DNA of 64,000 nucleotides from Clavelina lepadiformis. Its lineage: Eukaryota > Chordata > Ascidiacea > Aplousobranchia > Clavelinidae. The position numbers were made by a program, and so were the translations under genes. Location of the stretch: NCBI RefSeq assembly GCF_947623445.1, contig NC_135242.1, forward strand, positions 7,936,001-8,000,000. Direction: 5' to 3'. Shown piece after piece: positions 3,001 to 52,074 of the stretch. Numbering within the stretch: position 1 is the stretch's first letter; the number at the start of each line of letters is the position of its first letter. The notes beneath the pieces were generated by a model. It saw only the letters and a list, made by a program, of their open reading frames with translations, did not search any database and was not told the DNA's origin.

Positions 3001-6000
3001 CAAAAAACTTTTAGCGTAATGAATGTGCAATGAACGGACGTAAGTAAAATCAGCCTTCAGTGGTCATTTAAATTGCATTATTATTTACGTCACATGCATA
3101 CAATATTGAATATATCTGGTATATTGTAGTTCTTACCCTTGTGGCTTTTAAATTTGATTAATGAAGACGTTAGGAGAATTGGGATCTTGTTTCAGTTGAC
3201 TACCAAAGTATTCTTTTGTCTACGATCGCAATGCTTCGCTTGCATTGTCTTTTAGTTTTCGTTTGTTTATTTGAGAGAAAATGAAGTACTACAAGGTGAT
3301 TTGGCAGTGGGAAAGTTTGTGGATTCAGAAGACATTAATCATATTTGAACAAAGTTAACTCTGCTAAACTACCGTGTCATTAAAAGCAAAGCAAGAAAGA
3401 TGTAACAAAGCCGAAGTAGATTATCTGATTATGATGCCTTATAGTGCCAACGTTTGGCATGCACTTGATTGACAGGTGGTGCACACCATTACCAAAACAA
3501 GGTATTACAAAGTGTGTGGCGGCTTAAAAAGTGGAAAACCTCCCAAGAGCGACATTTCCCATGGGCCAAATGTCTTGAGCACAATGCACTGAGCTGGACG
3601 CACAGTAGATGACAAATTTCATGTTTGCAAAACCTGCCTGAATCTAGCAATCACGTCTGTTTTGAGTGATCTATACACAGAAGCCTAGTGAGCCAACAAT
3701 TTTTACGTGATGTACATTTTGTATAGTTTACAAGAGATTTCGCTTATAACAGGTAAACATCGAAGATCCCGCCTTGTCTTGTGTCTGCTATGGCTCTAAC
3801 ATGGCCATAATTTTGTACACAGGTTCACAGATATTCACGCCATTAAATCTACGAAAAGAGAAATCAAAAATTTATCAACTGTTTAAAATATTTTCGCACA
3901 GTATTGCTTATAATTTCACTTGGTCAAAAATTCTAAGTGAAATTTTTAACACGATAAATTTTACCAAATATAGACATCGAAAATTGTTTACGAACAGTTA
4001 CAAGTGCTGCAATACTTAAGAGGTATTTCATCAGACGATGCGTTTAACCAAATCCTGTCAAGACAGCTTTCGCGTAATCGAATTAAACGGTGCAACAGCT
4101 TGAACAAAAATGCATTAACACAAGGAAAAAGAACATTATCAATGTACTTTGAAGAAGAAGATCAAATGTCAGTTACTTCACTAATTTGAACTGTTTAAAA
4201 GGTCACGTAGATAACACGACGACCATAGTGGTCAGATAAGGCGTGTTACAATTACATACCAAATTTGCTGTTCTTAAGAAATTTCCACAGTCTGATCAAA
4301 AAACTGCAACAATTACAGCATTTGCATTTACCGACGTATGCAAAAAGGTAATTTTGTTCATTTAGGCATATAATTTTGTGAAAAGATCAATACGAAATTG
4401 CGTATAAAGGCCTTCTCATGTCGCCATGCGTCAACCTTTGCTAAAACTAAAGTAATTTAGATATAAAAGAAAAAAGAAATGGTTTTATGTTAATTGTATT
4501 AGGTATTGATTTTTTAATAAAGCTTCCTTGCATAGTGCGAAAAAGCAATATACACTTCAGAAACACCTCTTTTGATAAACTTGTTATGCAGGGAAATTTA
4601 AATCTACAGTTCGAGTATACGACAGACGATTTTTCATCTATGTGTAAAATTCAGTTTTTGACTTAAAGAATGTGCGAATAAATATGTTTGAAGGACGTGT
4701 CAAAATCTTGTTCATTTTCCGATTTCTATGGGAAATGTTGTAGATCGTCTTTCGCATTAAGACATATTTTCATCACGAACGACAAAAATAACGTCAAAGC
4801 ACAACAAGTTTCCCTCCAATAGCCGATAACGTCGCTTGTAATGTCTTTGTTGATGTCAAAGCATACAAATCGCATTTAAAGATAAGTTCACTGGCATTAA
4901 GCCCCGCTTTATTGGTTTCTATGACATGTTAGCACGGACAACCAAGATTTTCCCAAAGATATATTTTTGCCCTTGTCTATCATCATAAAATTTCTAACTA
5001 GCAATTTTAGCGATTCATTGTTTTTGCTTTATGAAGATATGACACGTGTAAGTGCAACGTTCCCTAACGTCAACCACTTATGCTATGCGCTAATTATATG
5101 AATACGATCATGTAACGTATCATCATCAACTCATTAATCTTCGTTTTTCGCAACCAAGTTGACAGCCATAACAATTTCTTTAAATAAGTCGTTTGGTAAA
5201 CTAATGCACATTCCCGGTGCAAAGTCCGCAGGCTATAAAAGTAATGTTTTTGTAAAACGCATGTTATCCGAAGGTCTTGTGAATGCCGTAATTTCGGGAG
5301 TTGCACTGTGTGCAGAGACGCACCATTTGCGAATTTTTTTGATCTTTCCACGTTTAATTATTAATGAGGGACATTGTTTAACGGACGTTGGGCTGAGTAC
5401 GGTGTAGTGTTTTTCTCCCGTTTTTTAACTTGAAATTATCGGAAATTTTATCGAAATTTTTTGTTCAACTTCATCAATATAAATGATGTTTGCATGCATG
5501 CTGTCATGTTGCGCTATTTCATGATACCAAGGAATTGCTCTTATATATTTTTCCAAATTGGAATTAACCTTCCTACTTCCTTCACACAATTGCGATTACG
5601 AAAAGAACGTAAAACCAATGCAATAACCTAATAATAATTTTTTGAGATTAATTACCATATTTAACTACGACTGACCCAAAGGCCAAGAAAATAAAATTAC
5701 TTACGAACAAAATAGCCAAACGAATCCTCGTCGGTGTCCTAAACTTTCTGTACGTGGTCGGGTACTTGACTGATATGTATCGGTCCAGGCCGATGAAGCA
5801 GATATTACAGATTGAAGCAGTGCATAGCAGGATATCCAAGGAAAGATAAATTCGACAGTAGACGTCACCGAAAGGCCAATAGTCCAAAAGTTCATTAGTT
5901 AATGTAAAGGGAACGACAAGTACCACCAGAAGGGCGTCAGATACAGCTAAAGACATAAGGTACGTGTTTTGGATATGTTTGTTGATGACGTTGTCTTTGA

Positions 6001-6232
6001 GAATGGCTACAACCACCATTACGTTTCCGACCAGCCCCAGAAGACAGAATAAACCGGTCAAAATGCTCAGCACGATTACGCTCGATGTGCTATAAGTTAC
6101 ACCTGCAGATTCCGTGGAATTATTCCCAAGGCATCTGCTCCTATCTTCTTCAAACTCCAGGGCATCAGCAAAATAACCAGTAGTAGCATTGTCAAACCGA
6201 TTTATTGGAAAAGCAGTTGAACTTAAATCCAT
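1..6232 (-). CDS. Biogenic-amine GPCR, alpha-2-adrenergic-like (3' end outside window)
   Basis: Rhodopsin-family receptor, probably Gi-coupled and catecholamine-binding, acting at the plasma membrane. Exons on the minus strand: 6232-5705, 1265-1162, 906-781, 296-181 and 42 to beyond 1; the phases join cleanly. The N-terminus carries NAT and NST glycosylation sites. TM1 contains GNVMVVVAIL, TM2 LAVSD, and TM3 has the amine-binding Asp in LSLDILLCTAS followed by LDRY. The stretch ANE-like TNELLDYWPFG and the TM3 sequence recall alpha-2 adrenergic receptors. TM4 and the ECL2 cysteine lie in exon 2. TM5 in exon 3 reads ILSCSLSFFIPS, with serines at the catechol-contact positions. Exons 4 and 5 would be the third intracellular loop and are less certain. 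TM6-7 are not in the window. Intron 1 is unusually long (4.4 kb). If it were retained, the protein would end 18 codons after exon 1. An octopamine- or dopamine-like identity is possible; the amine-receptor class itself is secure. Confidence 0.85.
1266..5704. other. Long first coding intron of the GPCR, no gene recognised
   Basis: About 4.4 kb of AT-rich DNA between GPCR coding exons 1 and 2. Open frames here are short, lack recognisable domains and have no plausible splice partners. I see no terminal-repeat element. The length is out of line with the other introns in the window. Confidence 0.6.
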
Positions 6233-6742
6233 AGTTTGCTTCAGTTATATTACCACAGCACACAATAATCTGAAAAGAAACGCCCTCTTAACATTCAACA
6301 AATCTTCTTAAAGCTACCAATAAAATCGAGTGTTTACCCAGCCTCGTAAAATAAAGGCAGTCAAAAAGCAATGACACCAAAGCGTATTTTCTATCTTAAA
6401 ATGAATTGGAGCTATGCTTTAAGCAAGATGTTCCTAAGTTTGTATTGACGGAACTATGAGGAAATAGTAGAAAACAAAAAAATGGGGTGTAGCAAAGAAA
6501 TACCCGGGACAATTACATATTTTTTTATTGTACTTGCTTAGTAACATGTCAAGCCCACGGATTTAAACAAGACCTATTTACACTATCCATTAGTGACTAA
6601 AGCATTGCTGCCAATGAAAACTATGTTCCTTACTTACTTTCGCATTCATAGAACAAATGAAATGCTATCCTGACTTCAACCAACCAACCCATCGGCTATC
6701 CTGCGAGAAGCGGTCTGAGCGATTCGAGATGAAGCTGTGTGT

Positions 6743-13100: not shown

Positions 13101-16100
13101 GTGGTTATTAAAAACTAACTTCACAAAAACACTTTTGTTTTCAAAATACAAAAACTAACAAGCCCAAGCTTTATGCTGCACAAGGAATATACATTGGCAA
13201 TTTTTAAACTTTATGATTTGTTGTTGATGAAAAGATTAGGATTTCTTCTCACTCTACGACCTTCACCTATGGAGGTTTGTTAGACTTAAACAATACAACC
13301 AATACCAGTCATACCATGTATATAATCAACCAATTTTTAAAAATTTTATAACCACTAGTCATAGGTTTTGATGGTTTGGATATATGTTGTAGAGCTTCAA
13401 CAAATTTGAAGTTGAAAAAATTTGAATTTTTTAAATATCTCAAGCCGTTTTCGAGTTAATGCGATTTGAAATTTCCACCACCACAGGTTGGTGAGCACTG
13501 GTCACGCTTAGTGGTTTTCTTCAATATCTCTCATTCTGAAGGTAGAATAATGAAACAAATGTCATTTTTACCATTTTTGAGGTCAAGGAACTCATTTCAG
13601 CAGTTGAAAAGTCTCTAAAACGTCTCCTTCACCTAATAAATTAAGGGTATTTGAATGAAGATCACAGGGTAAGTTGCTGACGCAATTACAAAAATAGCAA
13701 TGATCTCCGAAACAAAATTTTTGAATTATTTTGTAGTATGGTTCAAGTATTTTCATCTATCCATAAATTGTGATCTTGTTTTTTGAGCTTAAAGAGAAAA
13801 ACGAGTTTGAACAATTGCACCATTTGTGATACTGTCACACTTGGACCTAATTGATCCAGTGGGGCTAAATACAAAGACACTTCATAAAACTGGAAAATTG
13901 AATTCGTATGCAAGTCGAAAGTAGAAATTGATTCAAGACATAAACTACATAATCTCAACTACCTGCCCACAAGCAATGCTTTATACGCAAATTCTGGTAT
14001 CCTTGTTACTCCCAGGTGATTTAATTGCTAGCTATACTCACTCATGATAGAACATTTAAAGATTTCAGGTAGTCATAATCAGAGTTGGATCAGTTGTAAG
14101 TTGTAATTGAGCTGAATATAATTAATTACATTTTTCATGTAATTGTAATTGCAATTGAAACATTTTTATTTTGTGTAATTGTAATTTGCTAAAATTTTTG
14201 CTTAATTATGCTTTCAATTACATTGGTATTGATCGTGATGATCGTGTTCCTGGTATGGTATTTCCCAACAAAAACCTAGATGCCATCTCAAGTCTATGTT
14301 TTTGTAAATCATCTGAATACAAGAATTCAAATACAATTCCACTCATGTAAGACGAACAGTGTCTAAAAAGTGATTGTGTAGTTGTAATTTGATCATATAC
14401 AGGTCTTTGTAGACTTGCTGTCCTTGCCAAACGTTTGACAGTACCCCCAATTCCGTCACAGGGAGACTTAATGTGACTGGTTGCAAAAAATGTTGTATTG
14501 ATATATGAAACAGGTCTAATGCTTAGCAGATTATCAATTGTAATATGTTAATCATAATATCTATGAAACAAAAGAATATTAATATAGTGATAGGTAAAAT
14601 TAATTTCAAAAAATATCAATTGTATGTGCCGCCATTTGTTATTGTTGAATGATAGTGTCTGTTGATACAAACTTGACATTGTAAAACGTGGTGCAGTTGT
14701 TCAAACTCATTTTTATCCTTAAGCTCAAAAAACAAGTTCACAATTTTAGGATATATGAAAATACTTGAACCATAGTACAAAAAACTTTGTTTCGGAGATC
14801 ATTGCTATTTTTCTAATTGCGTCATCAACTTACCCTGTGATCTTCATTCAAAAACCCTAATTTATTATGTGAAGGAGACGTTTTAGAGACTTTTCAACTG
14901 CTGAAATGAATTCCTTGACCTCAAGAATGGTAAAAACAACATTTGTTTCATTTTTATATAACATTTTACCTTCAGAATTAGAGGTATTGAAGAAAATCAC
15001 TAAGCGTGACTAGTGCTCACCAACCTAATATCCCTCAAGTGGTGGAAATTTCAAATCGCAATAACTCAAAAACGGCTTGAGATTTTCCAAATAAATTTTT
15101 TTTTAATTTCAAATTGTTTGAAGCTTTACAACAGTGGTTTTCAACCTGGGGGTCGTTTGCATTTTCTCTGGGGGTCGCAAAGACGACTGTGGTCGTGACG
15201 ACTGTCGCCAAGATGCAACACCAGCCATCTCACTGATGCTGCCTTGTGCATGAATTCAATAAAAGAGTATTTTTTTCAACAGAGTGGTATCATAATTTAT
15301 GTTATTTTTAATTATATTTTTTTTTGCTATTGCGGATACACAAATGTATGCATATGCCCGAATCAAAATTTTTGGAAGGGGGTCGTTAGTTACACTGGGT
15401 TGTTAAAATGGGTCGCAGTATGAAAAAGGTTGAAAATCACTGCTTTACAACATATATCCAAACTATCAAAATCTATGACTAGTGATTACAGGGCCTGGTT
15501 GATTAATTATACATGGAATGACTCATACAGCATTGAGATCTCAATTTCATTTCATGGCGTAATTATTCAAACTTAAAAATATTTAACTTCCACTCCACTA
15601 ACGACTGATATCTACAATATGTCTGTGGTGGAAATATTTCTGATGTGTTAAGAAACAATCACTAAAATGTTAATACAGCATGGGCAAGAGTGTTCTCATG
15701 CCTTCATCTTGCACAAAGCAAGGCAGCATTTTGCTTTACATTTACCATAGCAGGAGCACTGGAATTAATATTTACTAACTGTCAGTAATACGTGAGGATT
15801 TCATACTTAAAAAGGTGCCTTACAACCAAAATAATGTCATACAAAATAGTCTTTGCATTTCCTGGATTGGTCATGAAAACTGAAATGATAATTCCATATT
15901 TACCTTCACCGCCCATACTCTGTGTTTCGTGCAAAGAACGCAGTTTCTCGTGTGCTCTTGTGATCATTATGTCATACAAATCTGAACACAGAAACTAGTG
16001 AAATAAGATTGTAAATATTTAAGTTCCCACTGTGCCATTGACAAAAAATTAAAATGGCCATGATAAGGTTGAGCAAAATGACATAACAAATCATGTCACT

Positions 16101-38462: not shown

Positions 38463-41400
38463 CTAACGTTCGTTTGGGGAGTTTGCTGGTATAACATAGC
38501 TTGAAGTCGGAGAATACGAGTATTTGTGCAGTTTATAATCCATTGGATAGCTTAAAAAGCTCTCCACCGTTTTCCAGATTTCGTTGTTTCGCAGCAGCTG
38601 AACAACTTTCTCAATATCAGGAGATTGCATTCTGTCGCTATCATATGGACTGTAGAAATAAAACTGGTTTTGTTACAAAACTGATAACGTTGAAAGACCA
38701 TTAACGAAATCTGAAATAGCTGGTTTGATATAAATCAGAAAATGAGCATCACGTCGTGATTTGGAAAAGATGCCTTAAATGTATCTTGTGAAGTATACAT
38801 GCTATAAAGCTTATTAGAAAATTCGTTTTACTGTTTTAACAAAAAATTACGGTTTAGCACATACTGGTTGTCAGGTTATATAAGGTTGCAACTCAGCACA
38901 CTGATTAGCTTACTGTACTTACGGAACTACAGATCGTATAAGTGCGTGCACGGCTTCAAGTGCATCTGTGGTCCTCAGTGGACGATGGAACTCTATTCCT
39001 TGACAAGCACAAAGTAATTCGATAGCAATGACATACTCTACATTGCTGACTACCTCTAAAGCCTGTAAAATAGCTTCATGAAGTTAACATGAACAATAAA
39101 CGAAATACTGGTAGATGAAAAAGTCAAATATCAAACAACAAGCTATAAACACCTTTCTTGCTGCCCACCCGCCCATGGAAACATGATCTTCTTGACCAGC
39201 GCTAGTCGACAGTGAATCTACTGAAGATGGGTGACACAAACCTTTGTTTTCTGAAACAAGTGCCGCTGCGGTGCAGTGTGGAATCATAAAACCAGAGTTG
39301 AGGCCACCGTCTTGTACCAGGAAGGCTGGTAAGTCGCTGTAAGCTGTAAAGTATAGAAATGTTTGCAAAAACCACAGTTAATCAAGGGATTACATAAGTA
39401 GAGTAATTTGAAAAGCAGTGGCGAATTATACATGGGTTGCACAATCTTTCAATTCTTCTTTCACTCATAGATGCCAGCTCATGAACTCCAATAGCCAGAT
39501 AGTCGAGCGCTTTCGCAGGATATTCACCATGGAAATTTCCTCCTGAAATTGTTTCTCCACGATCGATTAACACCATCTGTCCATAAAAATTGAAATGAAA
39601 CACAATCTGTCAATATCATTAAAAAACGATAAAATTTCCTATCTTTGAAGTCCAAAGTGACGCAGTTGAAAAACGTTTATACACAGAGAAATATCATCTG
39701 TAAAAAAAGAAAAAGCTGTAAGAAAACAATATTGGATACAGAAGAAATCATACAGGATTGTCGGTTGCACTGTTCAATTCAACATTTAAGATGTTATTAA
39801 CGAATTCCACTGTGTCGTGAGCTATTCCATGGACTTGCGGGCAGCATCTCAAAGTGTATGCATCTTGTACTCTGTCACAGTTACGATGACTTTCTAAAGA
39901 GAACATTTTTTGCAATAAGACTAAAGTCAAGGTATACTGAAAACTACCGCATAATACCAGTTGAGACGCGTATTTGACCGGTCACATTAACCAACTTTTT
40001 ATAATTAGTTGGAGGAACAAATTGCTCTTACAAATAGCCTTGGTCCCGGCTTTAAAGATTGCCTTAACTCACGTGTTATTTCCGAAGGATCGGCCCCATA
40101 TTGCAGCAGAGCTCGCAAACGCTTAGCGACCGCCAGCTGCCCTTTATGAGGACGAGCTTCGTGAATTGCTTCATCAAACGCTCGGCTTGTGCCCTGCAAA
40201 GCTTCCAAAGTTAATGCAGCGGCAACATCAGCCTGTAGGGCGATTTGTTTAGCTCTTTGTACAGCTTCTGACCCAAGTGAGGCAATGAATTGTGTCCCAT
40301 TTATCAACGCAAGCCCTGAAAATATTTCAAAACCTCAATTAAATTTGTGCTGCAAACAGAAAGTAACAGTATTTAAAGCTATATGGTTACAAATGAACTA
40401 CCTTCCTTTGGGCCTAACTTCAGAGTTTCAATGCCATTAGCTTCCATGACATGACTAGCATTTGCCCAACCACTTTTAGGTGACCACATCATACCCTTTC
40501 CCATCAGCCCCACCGCCAAGTGGGACAAAGGAGCTAAATCTCCACTTGCACCGACAGTACCCTTTTCTGGAATCCACGGAAGACATGAAGCTGAAAAAAG
40601 CAAACATATCTGTTTGAGAATAAGCAGTAGTAAAGTTGTAACTTTGTTTGCGATGATGATCGGTTGGATTAGTGTTGCAGTTAAAATATCTGCATTTTGC
40701 GACCAGGGTTCGATATTTGCCGACGCTGTATTGTTGTAATAGCTTTGGGAAAGGAGTTGTAGGCTAGACTGTCACTCTTTCATCGAACAATCGTACGTTA
40801 AAAGAGATTTTTCATCGTATCTTGTTAACTTAATTTAAATGTTACGAAAAAGTAACTTAAGTCCTTCTTCTAATTTAATTTAACTTCAAGTAAACCCTTA
40901 ACAAATTAAATCGACTTTTTGCATACCTATTCTCCTATAACCTATAACCGCTTGTCTTTAACAACGGGCCGCGTGACCTACTTACTGTGAAATAGTCACT
41001 TCGTATAACCATGCTTTTTCCTGTTCATTGCGAGCGTTAAACAGAGCTGTTTGAAATTTCAGAATTCGGGTTAGAGCGCACCAATTGGATAATTCGCACA
41101 GGGGAAAAGCTTTGAGCAGAAAAAAATCATTACCAAGTTTATAAGTTGTGTAAAGGTTTTCCTCAGTTGGAGGGTAAATATTACGATAGCATTTACCATA
41201 ATAAGCGTGTATGACCATAAGCAGCTGTTTATCTAAAAGCGACTGGAGATGTAGCCAACTGCTGTGTATGCTGAATGCAGCAAAGAAAACATTGCTTGAG
41301 TTAGTATACATCATTTCCAACGAAGTGTTGCGTCATCATTGTTACTGACGCTAATAATCATACCATGCTCATCGCATGTGGTCAGGCGACACAGCATTAC

Positions 41401-45149: not shown

Positions 45150-46050
45150 ATGAGTTCATCACGACGTCGATGTGTAAATAGCTCGGATTCATTTTGCTAC
45201 ATTTGTGGGGAGTATACTGCTGAGATTCAAAGAAAAAACATCACTGATTTTGCCAAGCAAGTATATCTTGCATATTTTGGAGTAAAGCTTGGCGATTAAG
45301 ATAAGCCTTGGGCTCCTCATAAGATTTGTAAAACCTGTATAGAGAGCCTGAGACTATGGAAAAATGGAAAGAAGAAAAGCTTAAAATTCGGAGTGCCTAT
45401 GGCATGGAGAGAGCAGCAAAATCATCACGATGACTGTTATTTTTGTATGGTGAATCTCAGAGGTTTCAATCGCTACAAGAGGAGTACATGGGAGTACCCC
45501 AACTTGGAGCCAGCAAGGCGACCGGTCGAGCACTGCAAAAGCATTCCTGTACCTGTGTTTACATCACTGCCAGATTTGCAAGAAACAGATATTGAGGAAA
45601 AGCATGAAATGAAACATAGTGAAGCAAGTGGTGACAGTTTTAGTGATTACGAAGAAAGCTTTTTCACTCTCGAACAGTACAAAAAAGGAGCTTAATAATC
45701 TTATCACTTATCAGAGACCTTGACTTACCAAAAGAAGCATCTGAGATTTAAGGTTCCAGACTGAAGGAGAAGAACTGTTTAAAGGCGGATGCAAAGATAA
45801 CAGCGTACCGGACTTGGGAAGAGGAACTTCTACTTTTCTTCAGTCAAGATGCAGACCTTGTATATTGTAAAGATATACCTGGACTTCTCCTCAAAATGGA
45901 AGTCCTAGACTACAAACCGGAAGACTGGCGATTGTTATAGACAGCTCTACCAGAAGTTTAAAATGTGTTCTGTTGCACAAAAGCAATCGCTATGCATCTC
46001 TGCCAATTTCTCATTCAACAAAACTGAAAGAAGAGTATGAAAACGTCAGT
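45150..46050 (+). pseudogene. Broken transposon-associated zinc-cluster gene
   Basis: Conceptual sequence starting MSSSRRRCVNSSDSFCYICG, with paired cysteines also in CKTCIESLRLW and DDCYFCMVNL, then RPVEHCKSIPVPVFTSLPDL. I recognise this as a family that occurs in many near-identical copies in invertebrate genomes and behaves like a mobile-element protein; I cannot assign its superfamily with certainty. The copy is a fossil with a few breaks. It ends abruptly where the large inverted-repeat element begins (about 46064). The AT-rich leader from about 44560, with a run of A then T near 44660, probably belongs to the same element. Confidence 0.6.
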
Positions 46051-46087
46051 AGTATAGTACTGCCACCCTAAGACCCCCCCTCCATAT

Positions 46088-46628
46088 GGTAACTCTATGG
46101 TAACCTGCCATATAGTCATGGTTCGTGAGCGGCACCACGCGAAAAGTAAAATCTTGAAAGGGCACCACGCGGAAAGAATATTCTTGAAAGTTGCAGTTAC
46201 CTTTTGTGGCAGAGCAGCACCACGCGGAAAGAAAAATCTTGTGAAATGGAAATAGTCTAAGTCTGTTAGTTGTTGTAATCTAGTTTGCAATAACATTATA
46301 GAAAAGAAAAGTATCAAAACAAAAGATTGCGCGTTTGTTGTAATCTAGTTTGTAATAGAATGCAAAATCTAGTTTGTAATAACATTATAGAAAGAAAAGA
46401 TTAACCATTACAAACAAAACATTGCGCGTTATAATGAAAGTCATGCGAATGCGTTGCACTCGATCAATTCACGTCCAGTTGTTATTCGTTTGTTTCCAAA
46501 ATGTAGATGGTTGAAGCAAAAACAATTAGACTAGCCTTTATTAAGGGAAAGGAGTAATCAGACTATTGCCAAAACGCTTTGAAAGAGTTATTGCGGTTCA
46601 AGTCAGTGCTGAAACTAACGTCTTGCAC
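46088..46628 (+). repeat. Left arm of the 46-48 kb palindrome
   Basis: 541-bp arm, reverse complement of 47329-47869 with very few differences. It translates on the minus strand into a 100-codon frame that reappears on the plus strand in the other arm; this mirror coding is a result of the palindrome and is not a gene. Confidence 0.85.
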
Positions 46629-46922
46629 AATCTTTATGAAAGAAATGTTATAAGGGGACATTTTTGGAAGGGTATATAATCGCTTCCCACCTTAGGTAAA
46701 ATGAATGTTTATCATTTAAATCGGTAAAAAACCATAACAAGATTCAAAAATCTGATTTACGGTGTTTCAATATTGATCAACGATTTTCACTAACCAATTA
46801 AACATGACATTTAAGGTCACCAATAAAGTAGCTTTGAATAAATCCAGTGATGTAGGCCTAAATTTGACTGAAGTTGCATTGGAAGTGTCGACTGAAATCC
46901 AGCTGTGAAGCAGTACAGTAGA

Positions 46923-47340
46923 TTACAACGTGGAAACGGATGTGTCTCGGAAATAACACATTTGGCTTGTCTTGATTTGTTGAAAATTTGGAAATTCTTT
47001 CACCTGTTTGTCTACTTCTTTGGCATGTTCACAAATCTCGTCAGTTAGTTCCACTTTATTGATGCGGGCCAGGAGCTTTGAAACCTTTATTCCTTGTTTA
47101 TCTTTTTTCTTGATGAAAAGCGATCTCGATGATTCTGGGATAATCAACGCGATTAAGCGGAAGGGAAGACCAAGAAGAGTAGAGACAAACTGAAATATAA
47201 AAGAACGGAGTTATTTCCAAAAGCATATTTACAAAGTGGTAAAGCTTGTCTATTTTTAGCCTACAGTTATTTCAGGCCAATCGCTCCAGTTGTAAGCAAT
47301 CCCACCCATAACCATGTATCCAAGTGCAGTGCAAGACGTT
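46923..47340 (-). pseudogene. Two-exon fragment of an SLC22-like organic ion transporter
   Basis: Minus-strand reading: an exon ending ALGYMVMGGIAYNWSDWPEI at 47265, a donor GTAGGC, a 75-bp intron (47264-47190) and an acceptor TTTCAG, then an exon starting at 47189 with LLGLPFRLIALIIPESSRSL. Transmembrane-like stretches followed by the PES-R-L-x5 loop and a charged LLARINKVELTDEICEHAKE stretch match the layout of SLC22 (OCT/OAT) transporters at the start of the large cytoplasmic loop. Only about 110 codons are present. No further transporter exons are seen nearby, so this looks like a captured or stranded gene piece and not a working gene. The family call rests on motif resemblance only. Confidence 0.5.
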
Positions 47341-47869
47341 AGTTTCAGCACTGACTTGAACCGCAATAACTCTTTCAAAGCGTTTTGGCAATAGTCTGAT
47401 TACTCCTTTCCCTTAATAAAGGCTAGTCTAATTGTTTTTGCTTCAACCATCTACATTTTGGAAACAAACGAATAACAACTGGACGTGAATTGATCGAGTG
47501 CAACGCATTCGCATGACTTTCATTATAACGCGCAATGTTTTGTTTGTAATGGTTAATCTTTTCTTTCTATAATGTTATTACAAACTAGATTTTGCATTCT
47601 ATTACAAACTAGATTACAACAAACGCGCAATCTTTTGTTTTGATACTTTTCTTTTCTATAATGTTATTGCAAACTAGATTACAACAACTAACAGACTTAG
47701 ACTATTTCCATTTCACAAGATTTTTCTTTCCGCGTGGTGCCGCTCTGCCACAAAAGGTAACTGCAACTTTCAAGGATATTCTTTCCGCGTGGTGCCCTTT
47801 CAAGATTTTACTTTTCGCGTGGTGCCGCTCACGAACCATGACTATATGGCAGGTTACCATAGAGTTACC
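47329..47869 (-). repeat. Right arm of the 46-48 kb palindrome
   Basis: Reverse complement of the left arm. Its inner end runs directly into the upstream SLC22-like exon, so both arms include a little of that exon's coding frame. Confidence 0.85.
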
Positions 47870-48499
47870 GGGATCACGACATATGACCGTGAACAAACTC
47901 ACCGGCGACAACTGGTAGTGGACAACTGACCGGCAACAAATTGGCCGGCGATCAAATTAACCGTGACGTAAACTAGCCGGCGATGAAATTAACCGGCGAC
48001 AAATTGGCCGTCAAAAGGTCAAAATTCTAATTCACTATCTAGTCGCTATCTAGTCACTATCCAATTTAGTATGTGTATTGCAGTCAAGGTTGCCACTCGT
48101 AGAGTTTTTTGGCCCCTTGTAGGGTGTAGGGTGACCCTACGGGTTTTTCACCTTTATTCATAGATTTCCTATTGTTACATGCATTTTCCCGGTCTAGACG
48201 AGTTGTTTGATGAGATTATGAAACAATGCGTTGTAGCCTATCTCATGTAACAATGGACTCATTGCAATAACAATGGACACTTTAGTTAAGTAAATTGTCA
48301 GATTGAAGCTGTACGTCAGGACTCCCACGGTCAATTTACCTCCCGGTCAATTTTCATTCCGGTAAGTCTGTTCCCGGTTAGTTTGTTCGCGGTCAATTTA
48401 CATCACAGTCAGTTTGTTCGCGGTCAATTTACGTCACGTTCAGTTGTCCCCGGTGAGTTTGTTCGCGTTCATTTTCCCGCGGCCATATGTCGTGGAACC
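47870..48499. mobile_element. Mutator-like non-autonomous element
   Basis: 630 bp with ends GGGATCACGACATATG and CATATGTCGTGGAACC, flanked by an exact 9-bp duplication AGAGTTACC (47861-47869 and 48500-48508); 9 bp is the Mutator signature. Subterminal regions on both sides are built from degenerate 14-17-bp tandem units around ACCGGCGACAAATTG or its complement. It is non-coding. It split the outer part of the right arm of the larger palindromic element and is therefore younger. Confidence 0.85.
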
Positions 48500-48536
48500 A
48501 GAGTTACCATATGAGGGGGGGGAGGTTCTTTGGGTG

Positions 48537-49975
48537 AATTCTTGGACCATATTAGAGAGGTTCTCAGGCAAATTCTAACAAATGATTTCTGAGCTATACT
48601 GGCCGAGAAATATTAATTCACAGTATTAAACCAAAGGTTCACCGTGCGAAAAATATTAATGAGACTGACCATTTCATTGCAAGTACAGTAGATCACGCAA
48701 CCTGTTGTTAAAGATAAGCGGTAGGTTATTCAAAAAGTTTTATTTGAGTTATTTAAGGTTTTATTGGAGTTAGATTAACATTACAAGGTAGATTTAGGTT
48801 AGGTTTAAGTTACATATGTTTATGTTATAACATTTAGGTTATGTTAACATCAAAATGTAAAAATAGCTTTCAACGTATGATTTTTCTGGTGAAATATTGG
48901 TAGCCAATATTAATTGTTTTTTTCACACTATACTCTAAGTTGTAAACAACGACGGTTCACTGTGAAACAACTTTCCGCTGACATCTTCTAACTTGAGCAT
49001 TTACCTGCAGAGATTTTCTGTTAAGCTCGCAAAAAATGAATTTATTGCATTATTTTTGCGTTGTTTCAAGTCAAAAAAAGTTTGCTTTAAATAGTCTATT
49101 TCAGCAGCATGTGTAATCGGCAAACTTACAAATGCTGATCACCTACGGGGTGTCTTTCAGGCTAGCAAGGCCCGAATTTCACACTCCCCTGCATATTAGA
49201 AATTTACACGATTTCTTGAAGTTTTATATTGAACAGGTTGAAAAAGATAATGATATGAATGACTGGTTGAAACTGATACAGAACAGCTAGAAATGTCAGA
49301 AATCAACGTAGTTCGACTTCGTATGTGTGGCACGTCTGATACGTGTGTAACGTATGATACGTGTGTTTACATGTGATTGCTATCGGTACAGAACCCAGGG
49401 TAATATTATTTTATAACCTGAAAACCCAAACAAGGACTAAGTAACGGAAATGACACTACCCTGTGAATCTGTAAGCGATATCAATAATAATTGGCATTAC
49501 TGGTAAATTTGATCTCAATCACGTGACTAACAAATACAGACATTAAAATAGGTTTACTGGCAACTAACGTATCATACTGCATGCAAAAAAAAACAATTAA
49601 ATAAGTCAGAAATTGTCTGGGATTAAAGCTAATGCGAGATTGAATCGAAAAAGAAATAATACCGGTAAATGTGTGAAGCCAGACTCTCAGTAGCTCCTCC
49701 GCAGCTAAAGGAAGGCGTCGTGGGTCCTCGTCAGACTAAGATTGCAGGCCGGCGTGGGTCCTTGATGTCGTTGCAGCAAAGATTGCAGAGCTTTTCTACA
49801 GCTGATTATTATTATTATTAAATAATTATTTATCTACGTGTCAGCTTTAACTCAATGTATCTCCCAACACATTGCTAACACATTGTTTTCCTCGCAGCAC
49901 ATGTTCTGAAATGTTGCGTTTTTCTTGTCGAACATTTTTACTCCCATCGCTTCACGTTTTATAAGCTCGCACTTA
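48537..49975. other. AT-rich interval between mobile elements
   Basis: No coding exon recognised. Contains TTAGGTTA-like stretches near 48790-48850 that are too irregular to be telomeric, and an imperfect pair of GTGGGTCCT-containing segments near 49725-49765. Confidence 0.4.
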
Positions 49976-50559
49976 TGGAACGCCAACGCCGCAAAAATAG
50001 CAAAGTGCTAAATTGTATCGCAACTTTGCAAATTATGTTTTGTTTTCATGATTTGATTTGAGGGTTTTCAAACGTAATTTGATAGATTCCAATCAAGAAA
50101 CAACAAGCCAAACGTCAAAACCGGCATTCAAACGGGCTTTTCTGTGACTGCCGTTGCACGATTCATATGCCAATTATCAAAATGGTTTTGCAACATTTAC
50201 AATTACACCACAGTTTTATAAACTTGATTTTTTTAAATCAAACCACGACATTTTAGGTCAGATTTAACAAATCCAAAGCAAACTGGCTGTTGGCAAGTTA
50301 CAATCCCCAATGGTAAATGGTGTTTTCTTTAATCGGGTTGCAGTTTTGTCAATCAAATGTCCGTTTTTTTATTCATGTAACTTATACCATGAATTATAAA
50401 ATGGCCAAATGATTGGAAATTAGTCTTCGTAAATTAAGAATGGGCTGACCAATTGGCAAAATACATGCGTTATTAGACAAACATACACAAATTGCTGAAC
50501 CAACATCATTCCTAAAAATACTAAATGATTCTATAAAAGTACGTATGAATCGCATAACG

Positions 50560-50830
50560 TCTTCATGAATTGTCAAGTATACATGATTCGTCAAATGTAT
50601 AGATGATTTGCCAAAAGTGCATGATTCGCTAAATGTCCATGATTTGGTAAATGCATGCGTGATTTGCCAAATGTACATGATTCGGTGAATTTAAGCATGA
50701 TTTGAAAAATGCACATGATTTGCCAAATGTACATGTTCGATAAATGTATGTGACTTACCGAATGTATATGGTTCGGTAACTGTACACATGATTTGCCAAA
50801 AGTACATGGTTGATCATATGTACATGGTTC
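50560..50830. repeat. Minisatellite, 18-22-bp unit
   Basis: At least ten degenerate copies built on CATGATT(T/C)G(C/G)(C/T)AAATGTA within the left arm of the 50-52 kb element. An inverted block of about six copies lies at 51590-51722. Confidence 0.8.
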
Positions 50831-51407
50831 GTTGTTAGAGTGCGCCAAGTGTGCAAAAATGTTTTTGACGTCATAAATCGTTTTTCTTTTGGCGGGAAGC
50901 AAGAAGCAAAGGTATTTGACAGAAGACAAAGTTTTGTGACTAACTTATCTTTGGAGACAGGCGGAAAGTTATCCTGTACCGTCAGTGCAAAATACTTTGC
51001 GATCAGAATTAAGCGTAGGTTTACGAAGAATAGAATGTTTCTTTAGAAGTTATTTCAACACTAAACGCGTTAGGTTATGTTCTGTTTGATATGTGACTAT
51101 TAAGCTGAGCCAGATAGGGTACCGGTATGGATGTTAATGATTTGATACCGGTACTGCAATGTTGTGGTAGGCTGGTATATCCTGCAGGCTAGCCTTTCAA
51201 GAGCGCCTAGCGTTTTATTAAGCAGTACATGAGTATGGTGGGGTTAATTCTACTTTTGCAAATTGCTGGCCTGAATAGAAAGGAATTAACAACTGAAGAA
51301 GTGCAGGGCGGTTGAAGGCTAGTTGAAGTATAACACGTTATCAGTAACTATTTTTCTGTAGACGAGTTGATTAAAGTTAAAGTCTGTTCAACGTTTTAAA
51401 CAAACAT

Positions 51408-51440
51408 AAATAAAATACAATAAAATAAAATAAAATAAAA
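51408..51440. repeat. (TAAAA)n simple repeat
   Basis: Six or so TAAAA/TAAAATA units in the centre of the 50-52 kb palindromic element. Confidence 0.85.
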
Positions 51441-52074
51441 CGCTTTCAAGAGTGCCTTTTAGCTTTTTATATTATCTTCTGTCAAATACCTTTGCTTCTT
51501 GCTTCCCACCAAGAGAAAAACGATTTATGACGTCAAAAACATTTTTGCACACTTGGCGCACTCTTACAACGAACCATGTAACCTATATTTGATCAACCAC
51601 GTACTTTTGGCAAATCATGCACACATTCACCGAATCATGTACATTTGGCAAATCACGCATGCATTTACCAAATCATGTACATTTAGCGAATCATGCACTT
51701 TTGGCAAATCATCTATACATTTCACGAAGTTACGTTTGAAAATCCTCAAATCAAATCATGAAAGCAAAACATAATTTGCAAAGTTGCGATACAATTTAAC
51801 ACCTTGCTATTTTTGCGGCGTTTGGCGTTCCATACGCACTTCTACCAGCGAGCAGAGAGACAGATATAGAAAATCACCAAAATGAACAGATAAGCTGTCT
51901 GCGCTAGTCATGGTGATTGCAACTCAATAGACATTTTAAAAGCAGTGGTAGCCTATTACTCTGTTCTTGGTTATGCGTAATATTGAGAAAGTGCACAGCA
52001 CCTACAATGAAAAAATTTGAGGTAAACTATTTCTGTTGTAATATTAAAACCTTTCGGCTGACAAGAGGTTAAAG

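Follow-up and report, generated by a model that had tools for sequence, protein, structure and literature searches.

Transposons with terminal inverted repeats (TIRs) that carry copied host sequence have been described from many animals. A survey of 100 animal genomes, including those of frogs, alligators, and primates, reported 370 such Pack-TIRs (Tan et al., 2021, PMC8277862), and its abstract also names the Pack-MULEs of plants. The initial annotation of the locus described here had considered gene capture of this kind unusual for a chordate, a view that the survey contradicts. Maverick/Polinton elements are the second group of relevance: the ends of vertebrate Mavericks include (AGT)2//(ACT)2 and are accompanied by 6-bp target-site duplications (TSDs) (PMC8097293), and nematode Mavericks can carry host genes (PMC10680173). 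The words Maverick, Polinton, and Ciona are absent from the main text of the Pack-TIR survey.

The window analysed here is a stretch of 64,000 nucleotides from Clavelina lepadiformis (C3:7936001-8000000), and the genome searched comprised 209.06 Mb in 95 contigs, which we refer to by their labels. With a probability of roughly 0.78, the structure listed in Table 1 is a decayed, non-autonomous transposon of the Maverick/Polinton type that carries a piece of an SLC22 gene as cargo and whose inner right side was later mirrored from the left.

Table 1. Features of the element and its surroundings (positions in the window).
Feature	Position	Strand	Basis
Older multi-copy repeat with decayed ORF, insertion host of the element	45300..46047	+	genome matches; fetched copies continue past the junction
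Left Maverick-type terminus AGTAGTATAGTACTGCCACCCTAAGA	46048..46073	+	end motif match; host-repeat junction
Left arm, terminal/subterminal region of the element	46048..46628	+	internal GCACCACGCGG and TAATCTAGTTTGCAAT repeats
Remainder of the element on the left, as far as the gene junction (~46688-46695)	46629..46693	+	C6 homology and junction alignment
Genomic SLC22 fragment, captured; comprises intron, exon 7, intron, and a partial exon 6	46696..47328	-	match to C8 gene A
SLC22-like exon 7, open frame, 3' limit uncertain	46923..47189	-	protein matches; alignment with relatives
75-bp intron, GT..AG	47190..47264	-	by eye; aligned with gene A, A', L035, L038
Truncated SLC22-like exon 6, begins at ALGYM	47265..47328	-	comparison with gene A, L035, L038
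Right arm, repeats the left arm in inverted orientation	47329..47869	-	2/541 mismatches; paralogs have gene sequence there
Target-site duplication of the MITE, AGAGTTACC, left copy	47861..47869	.	comparison of MITE loci
Nested MITE, 630 bp, MULE-like, not part of the element	47870..48499	+	near-full-length copies; 9-bp TSDs
Target-site duplication of the MITE, AGAGTTACC, right copy	48500..48508	.	comparison of MITE loci
What remains, in diverged form, of the outer part of the original right terminus; final ~16 nt absent or not recognisable	48500..48536	-	81% to 46064-46096, 37 columns

An SLC22 fragment between inverted arms

The two arms (46088-46628 and 47329-47869) measure 541 bp each and are separated by a 700-bp spacer. 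They are as close to perfect as first described, since their only two mismatches fall at left-arm positions 46182 and 46216. When the window was compared with itself (24-base seeds, E < 1e-10), this pair was the longest and most similar of the five inverted repeats listed, the runner-up having 459 bp at 85%. This runner-up and a cluster of shorter pairs (108-259 bp, 85-96%) lie at 13385-15133 and 49974-51834. By eye, two minus-strand ORFs elsewhere in the window resemble a rhodopsin-type GPCR (5648-6244) and histidine ammonia-lyase (40379-40771); tRNA genes are absent from the window. Without the nested MITE, the element spans about 1.9 kb, more than half of which is made up by the arms. It contains no ORF of 130 residues or more and is non-autonomous.

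The two SLC22-like exons of the initial annotation withstood closer inspection. Among PDB sequences, their translation matched OCT2 (E 6.6e-7) and SLC22A3 (E 4.8e-5); against Pfam Sugar_tr it reached 18.9 bits and thus remained below the cut-off of 22.3 bits (E 7e-4). The intron between them shows GT..AG borders on the minus strand by eye, and its retention indicates that the cargo was captured from DNA and not from mRNA. Long matches to this central DNA are present at six other places in the genome at 84-89% identity (18 rows in all, including its own). Two of the six form a tandem pair at C8:15.347-15.358 Mb, of which gene A has, by eye, the full exon series of an SLC22 gene and A' is a copy of gene A (83% over 4.0 kb); the arm sequence was found in neither. 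The search for a parental gene, as suggested initially, leads to this cluster: the cargo is 88.4% identical to gene A over 46714-47328 when gaps are counted (91.8% of 599 aligned columns), the two members of the pair stand at 88% and 84%, and the intron aligns with that of both. As in Pack-TIRs, sequence not derived from a transposon lies between terminal repeats and a parental copy exists elsewhere. In exon 7, PESPRWL of gene A reads PESSRSL in the window. Given that this exon is damaged in both C8 genes, by an 8-bp gap in gene A and a stop in A', the true parent may be another, lost, or allelic copy.

The other four relatives (L035, C1:21.09 Mb; L038, C2:13.39 Mb; L039, C7:13.05 Mb; L040, C1:10.97 Mb) are gene fragments that adjoin the element sequence known from the window, which brings the gene-element chimera to five loci on four contigs, the window included. 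The join is identical in the window, L035, and L040, and L038 and L039 have a common version with about 100 bp more of the gene. In a tree of seven rows, the C8 pair stands apart from the five copies linked to the element (100/98); the rows of L039 and L040 cover part of the cargo only, and the order within the five copies is not separated. Beyond element and cargo, no mutual homology of L035, L038, L039, and L040 was detected at E < 1e-6. A single capture, followed by spread, would be the simplest reading of the common junctions. Further copies of the arm sequence exist elsewhere in the genome and, together with the same junction at five loci, the visible left junction, and the SLC22 genes of the C8 cluster, they uphold the initial proposal of gene-fragment capture by a TIR element. 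Neither of the two outcomes named beforehand as speaking against it occurred, namely arms confined to this locus beside a full SLC22 gene, or a central segment without SLC22 similarity.

The locus does not hold a complete, constrained SLC22 gene, but parts of two exons only. Exon 7 carries six nonsynonymous and three synonymous changes private to the window, at a neutral expectation of 74% nonsynonymous, and so displays no sign of constraint in a test whose power is low (gene A itself has 2:0 and A' 5:2). In L035, exon 6 contains a stop. The cargo is most likely a decaying fragment without present function, which would make it passenger DNA in the family.

Maverick-type ends and their family

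On the left, the element ends in AGTAGTATAG at 46048. A pattern built on this end, allowing up to three mismatches, has 83 matches in the genome and a single match when reversed as a control. Inverted partners within 20 kb were found for 22 forward ends; two partners are shared, and the pairs span between 147 bp and 17.1 kb. Ten of these pairs were chosen for examination. The 6-bp target duplication is perfect in nine of them (eight recognised by script, C7:16682887-16695606 read by eye), and the tenth agrees at 5/6 positions. By eye, no TSD surrounds a 456-bp element with both Maverick-type ends (L056, C3:3896930). At C9:11146388-11146534, two inverted ends lie 147 bp apart and possibly represent a minimal element.

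One member of the family bears genes: the element at C4:22273248-22285359 (L108; TSD GACTAT) matches integrase (rve, E 1.1e-13) and chromodomain (Chromo, E 3.7e-10) profiles, and the longest ORF in the 4 kb read has 349 residues. An adenoviral-protease match remained sub-threshold (E 0.072), and Pfam returned no capsid match. The ends, the 6-bp TSDs, the integrase with chromodomain, and the published Maverick ends together place the family under Maverick/Polinton. The window element itself lacks the Maverick gene set (integrase, PolB, protease, capsid) and shows the (AGT)2...(ACT)2 termini at its left end only; as far as compared, the C4 element has nothing but the end motif in common with it. 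The Pack-MULE pattern suggested at the outset is not supported, as the ends are of the Maverick/Polinton type, the TSD of the family is 6 bp, and the sole 9-bp duplication found belongs to the nested MITE.

Outside the locus, arm-like sequence occurs at 34 places, which remain from 51 rows once two rows from the window itself and 15 that are secondary pieces of loci already counted are left out. Measured against all 83 end matches, 11 of the 34 have a Maverick-type end of the same orientation no more than 2 kb outward of them and two have one of the opposite orientation, at a random mean of 0.018. The only direct match of the arm interior to a Maverick-ended element is a 79-bp segment (78%) within the terminal repeat of a C9 element, which has no ORF of more than 145 residues in the 5 kb read. 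The tie between the arm interior and a gene-bearing Maverick is thus an indirect one.

The C9 element (C9:11814094-11825370; L102, L103, L105) is itself a seemingly near-perfect palindrome of 11.3 kb with Maverick-type ends and the 6-bp TSD CCGACG, compared at its outer 1,168 bp (99.9%) and its central 1.7-kb arms (99.8%, about 130 bp apart) only. Another Maverick-ended element, at C2:3889619-3905126 (L107; 15.5 kb, TSD CAAGTC), matches BIR (E 7.9e-5) and RING (E 1.9e-12) profiles and possibly carries IAP-like cargo. For L104, the first 60 residues of two ORFs gave one sub-threshold Pfam match (F_actin_bind, E 0.006).

Three of the five cargo copies (window, L035, and L039) have a Maverick-type terminus in the expected orientation, in L039 about 1 kb farther out than the first arm match, and at each of them AGTAGTATAG stands beside a different flank. 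A right terminus was found neither in L035, with 3.1 kb more included, nor in L039, and L038 and L040 have no element terminus at all as far as read. A loose end pattern (up to seven edits) produced no more than chance-like right-terminus matches in L035, L106, L038, L039, and L040. None of the five copies, as far as read, combines both termini with an intact TSD around the cargo element.

Right arm, insertion site, and nested MITE

C8 gene A, L035, and L038 have EIVG.KW.TFF..FYQTFFALGYM in the homologous exon, of which the window has a match from ALGYM on only, at the inner edge of the right arm. Aligned to the window, L035, L036, L037, and L038 match it as far as 47323-47328; L039 and L040 stop earlier, at 47202 and 47003, and have no bearing on the boundary between arm and gene. 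At the sequence level, this comparison shows the right arm to be a mirror copy of the left end, standing where the relatives have gene. Both arms had initially been thought to extend the reading frame of the exon. An open frame does run on into the arm, but there it consists of transposon sequence that occupies the place of the true exon start, and its continuation is therefore accidental. A gene reading frame through the arms was rejected accordingly, the exon match beginning at ALGYM.

The outer span first reported (46064-48536) is real: positions 48500-48536 resemble the outer end on the left as a diverged copy (81%, 37 columns), and between them and the right arm lies a 630-bp insertion not recognised at first. 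Given that these 37 bp are 81% identical to the left end and the arms differ at 2 of 541 positions, the outermost right end was not overwritten. We infer that the right side was repaired with the left end as template, the end join lying at 47328/47329, which agrees with the gap filling and template switching proposed for animal Pack-TIRs (PMC8277862, section 8). Mirror copying seems to explain the striking inverted repeat, and the long terminal inverted repeats of the element, that is the 541-bp arms, would owe at least their inner part to it.

The element sits in an older repeat which, searched with 45300-46047, has at least 45 genome matches, its own included (40 of 86 candidates scored), and which is without a Pfam match over 45300-45695 at E 0.1. 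All three copies of this repeat that were fetched (L079, L080, L081) continue beyond the point matching 46047. The left junction, 46047/46048, is exact to 1 nt: after ...GAAAACGTC or its equivalent, the window changes to AGTAGTATAG, and the six nucleotides to the left of the element are AACGTC. Towards the gene, C6:18811749-18811822 is homologous to the window at 91% up to 46693, where the match ends. The host repeat has no significant match to the right flank, and the window copy shows no target duplication because its right terminus is lost.

Near-full-length copies of the nested MITE are 630-664 bp long and 83-97% identical (40 of 859 candidates scored). All eight MITE loci examined, including that of the window, have a 9-bp TSD. 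Three of eight compared copies are identical over 630 aligned columns, so that the MITE was probably active recently. The differences between the arms (2/541) and the MITE changes private to the window (3/630, eight copies) are similarly small and do not settle which came first. A MITE clearly older than the arms was considered and rejected, as 5.2 arm differences would be expected and two are seen (P 0.11, not significant).

Origin of the locus and comparison with known systems

The five chimeric loci could be products of segmental duplication, in which an SLC22 copy and an adjoining Maverick-type repeat were multiplied without transposition of the chimera, and the arm arose by a local inverted duplication. 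Such an origin would account for L038 and L040, where no terminus was read, for the lack of a copy with right terminus and TSD, and for the cargo of L035, which extends to exon 1; in addition, L040 (2117-2287) matches the right flank of the window at 71% over 185 columns. However, this last match overlaps a common repeat (1190 candidates), the homology among the four relatives is limited to cargo and element, the flanks beside AGTAGTATAG differ between the window, L035, and L039, and the left junction of the window cuts cleanly into the host repeat, all of which make segmental duplication unlikely. The arms might also be ordinary long TIRs of the Maverick type, kept identical by replication or conversion of both ends, with the cargo between them from the start. 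Long near-identical TIRs do exist in the one large member examined, the C9 element, and pieces of the arm stand in inverted orientation at the right of the C9 copy L008 (73-88%). We nevertheless regard this as quite improbable: the gene continues in L035 and L038 where the window has arm, so that the inner arm is unlikely to be original, and the outermost right 37 bp have diverged although the inner 541 bp match.

Very high arm identity can be a sign of a palindromic read or a mis-join. The arms, however, do not meet as a mirror join but leave 700 bp between them, the MITE in the right arm has duplicated 9 bp of arm sequence on its two sides, and the outer flank differs; moreover, if the assembly is kaClaLepa1.1, it is HiFi-based with a QV of 67.4 (PMC10884593). 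An artefact of library or assembly is hardly credible on these grounds. We attach just as little probability to regulation of SLC22 by a functional hairpin RNA or a chimeric gene. Transcription of the locus would give rise to a 541-bp stem, but this stem would hold element sequence, given that the arms match neither C8 gene and the exons sit in the loop; the hairpin against the parental gene that had been envisaged is therefore not expected. The cargo, too, speaks against such a function, as it bears no sign of constraint in the low-power test.

In the transposon scenario that we prefer, an AGTAGT-ended element would have taken up an intron-bearing piece of an SLC22 gene related to the C8 pair. 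The chimera, recognisable by its common junction, then probably transposed to at least five loci on four contigs, as the common junctions and the differing flanks suggest. The copy in the window would have entered the older repeat at 46047/46048, where its left junction is preserved. Subsequently, its inner right side was presumably overwritten by the inverted copy of the left end that forms the 541-bp arms, most likely through gap repair or gene conversion for which the left end served as template. The insertion of the 630-bp MITE into the right arm and the loss of the right terminus are both evident at the locus and would have come last.

Maverick replication is presumably protein-primed, and symmetric defective adenovirus genomes provide a viral counterpart to a different, more tentative possibility. 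Here, mirror-ended defective Maverick genomes might arise when one end is copied in inverted orientation onto the other at replication, the product integrating and carrying host DNA along. The window element and the 11.3-kb palindrome on C9 might then, just as tentatively, represent successive states of a single process. Against this reading stand the 37 bp at the far right of the window element, which were not copied from the left end, and the term "symmetric recombinants" was not found in the literature searched.

Under the preferred reading, the element obeys the same logic of gene-fragment capture as plant Pack-MULEs, from which it differs in superfamily, TSD length, and end sequence. With animal Pack-TIRs it has in common a TIR element with copied host sequence, multi-copy cases far from the parent, and a proposed origin by gap repair or fork switching with template switching (PMC8277862); unlike those described there, it has Maverick-type ends, one of which is mirrored onto the other. 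Ssk-FB4, a Drosophila Pack-MULE with TIRs of about 700 bp (PMC8277862, section 9), is similar in that a gene fragment lies between long short-repeat arms and several copies exist. However, Ssk-FB4 has TSDs of 9-10 bp and is termed a Pack-MULE, whereas the family of the window element has 6-bp TSDs and (AGT)2 ends. The resemblance to Maverick/Polinton elements (PMC8097293) comprises the (AGT)2 ends and, in the family, the 6-bp TSDs and a member encoding an integrase with chromodomain, but the window element differs in spanning about 1.9 kb without the MITE, in having no Maverick genes, and in the loss of its right terminus. Nematode Mavericks with wosp and krma genes likewise have host genes as cargo (PMC10680173). 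While these move gene families between species, the cargo in the window is a broken gene piece that includes introns, and its carrier is short and defective.

Among the titles and abstract openings listed, in which subscription journals are thinly covered, none dealt with a non-autonomous Maverick that has a mirrored end or holds part of a host gene together with introns. The locus suggests that virus-like elements with Maverick/Polinton ends can capture and spread intron-containing pieces of host genes in a chordate genome, and it preserves an apparent step of terminal-repeat growth, in which the opposite end was copied over the cargo. Together with the C9 palindrome and the IAP-like matches, it offers snapshots for testing how host DNA is captured and terminal repeats expand. 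Gene capture by TIR elements in animals and cargo genes in Mavericks are both known; what is new here is a Pack-TIR of the Maverick type with a mirrored end.
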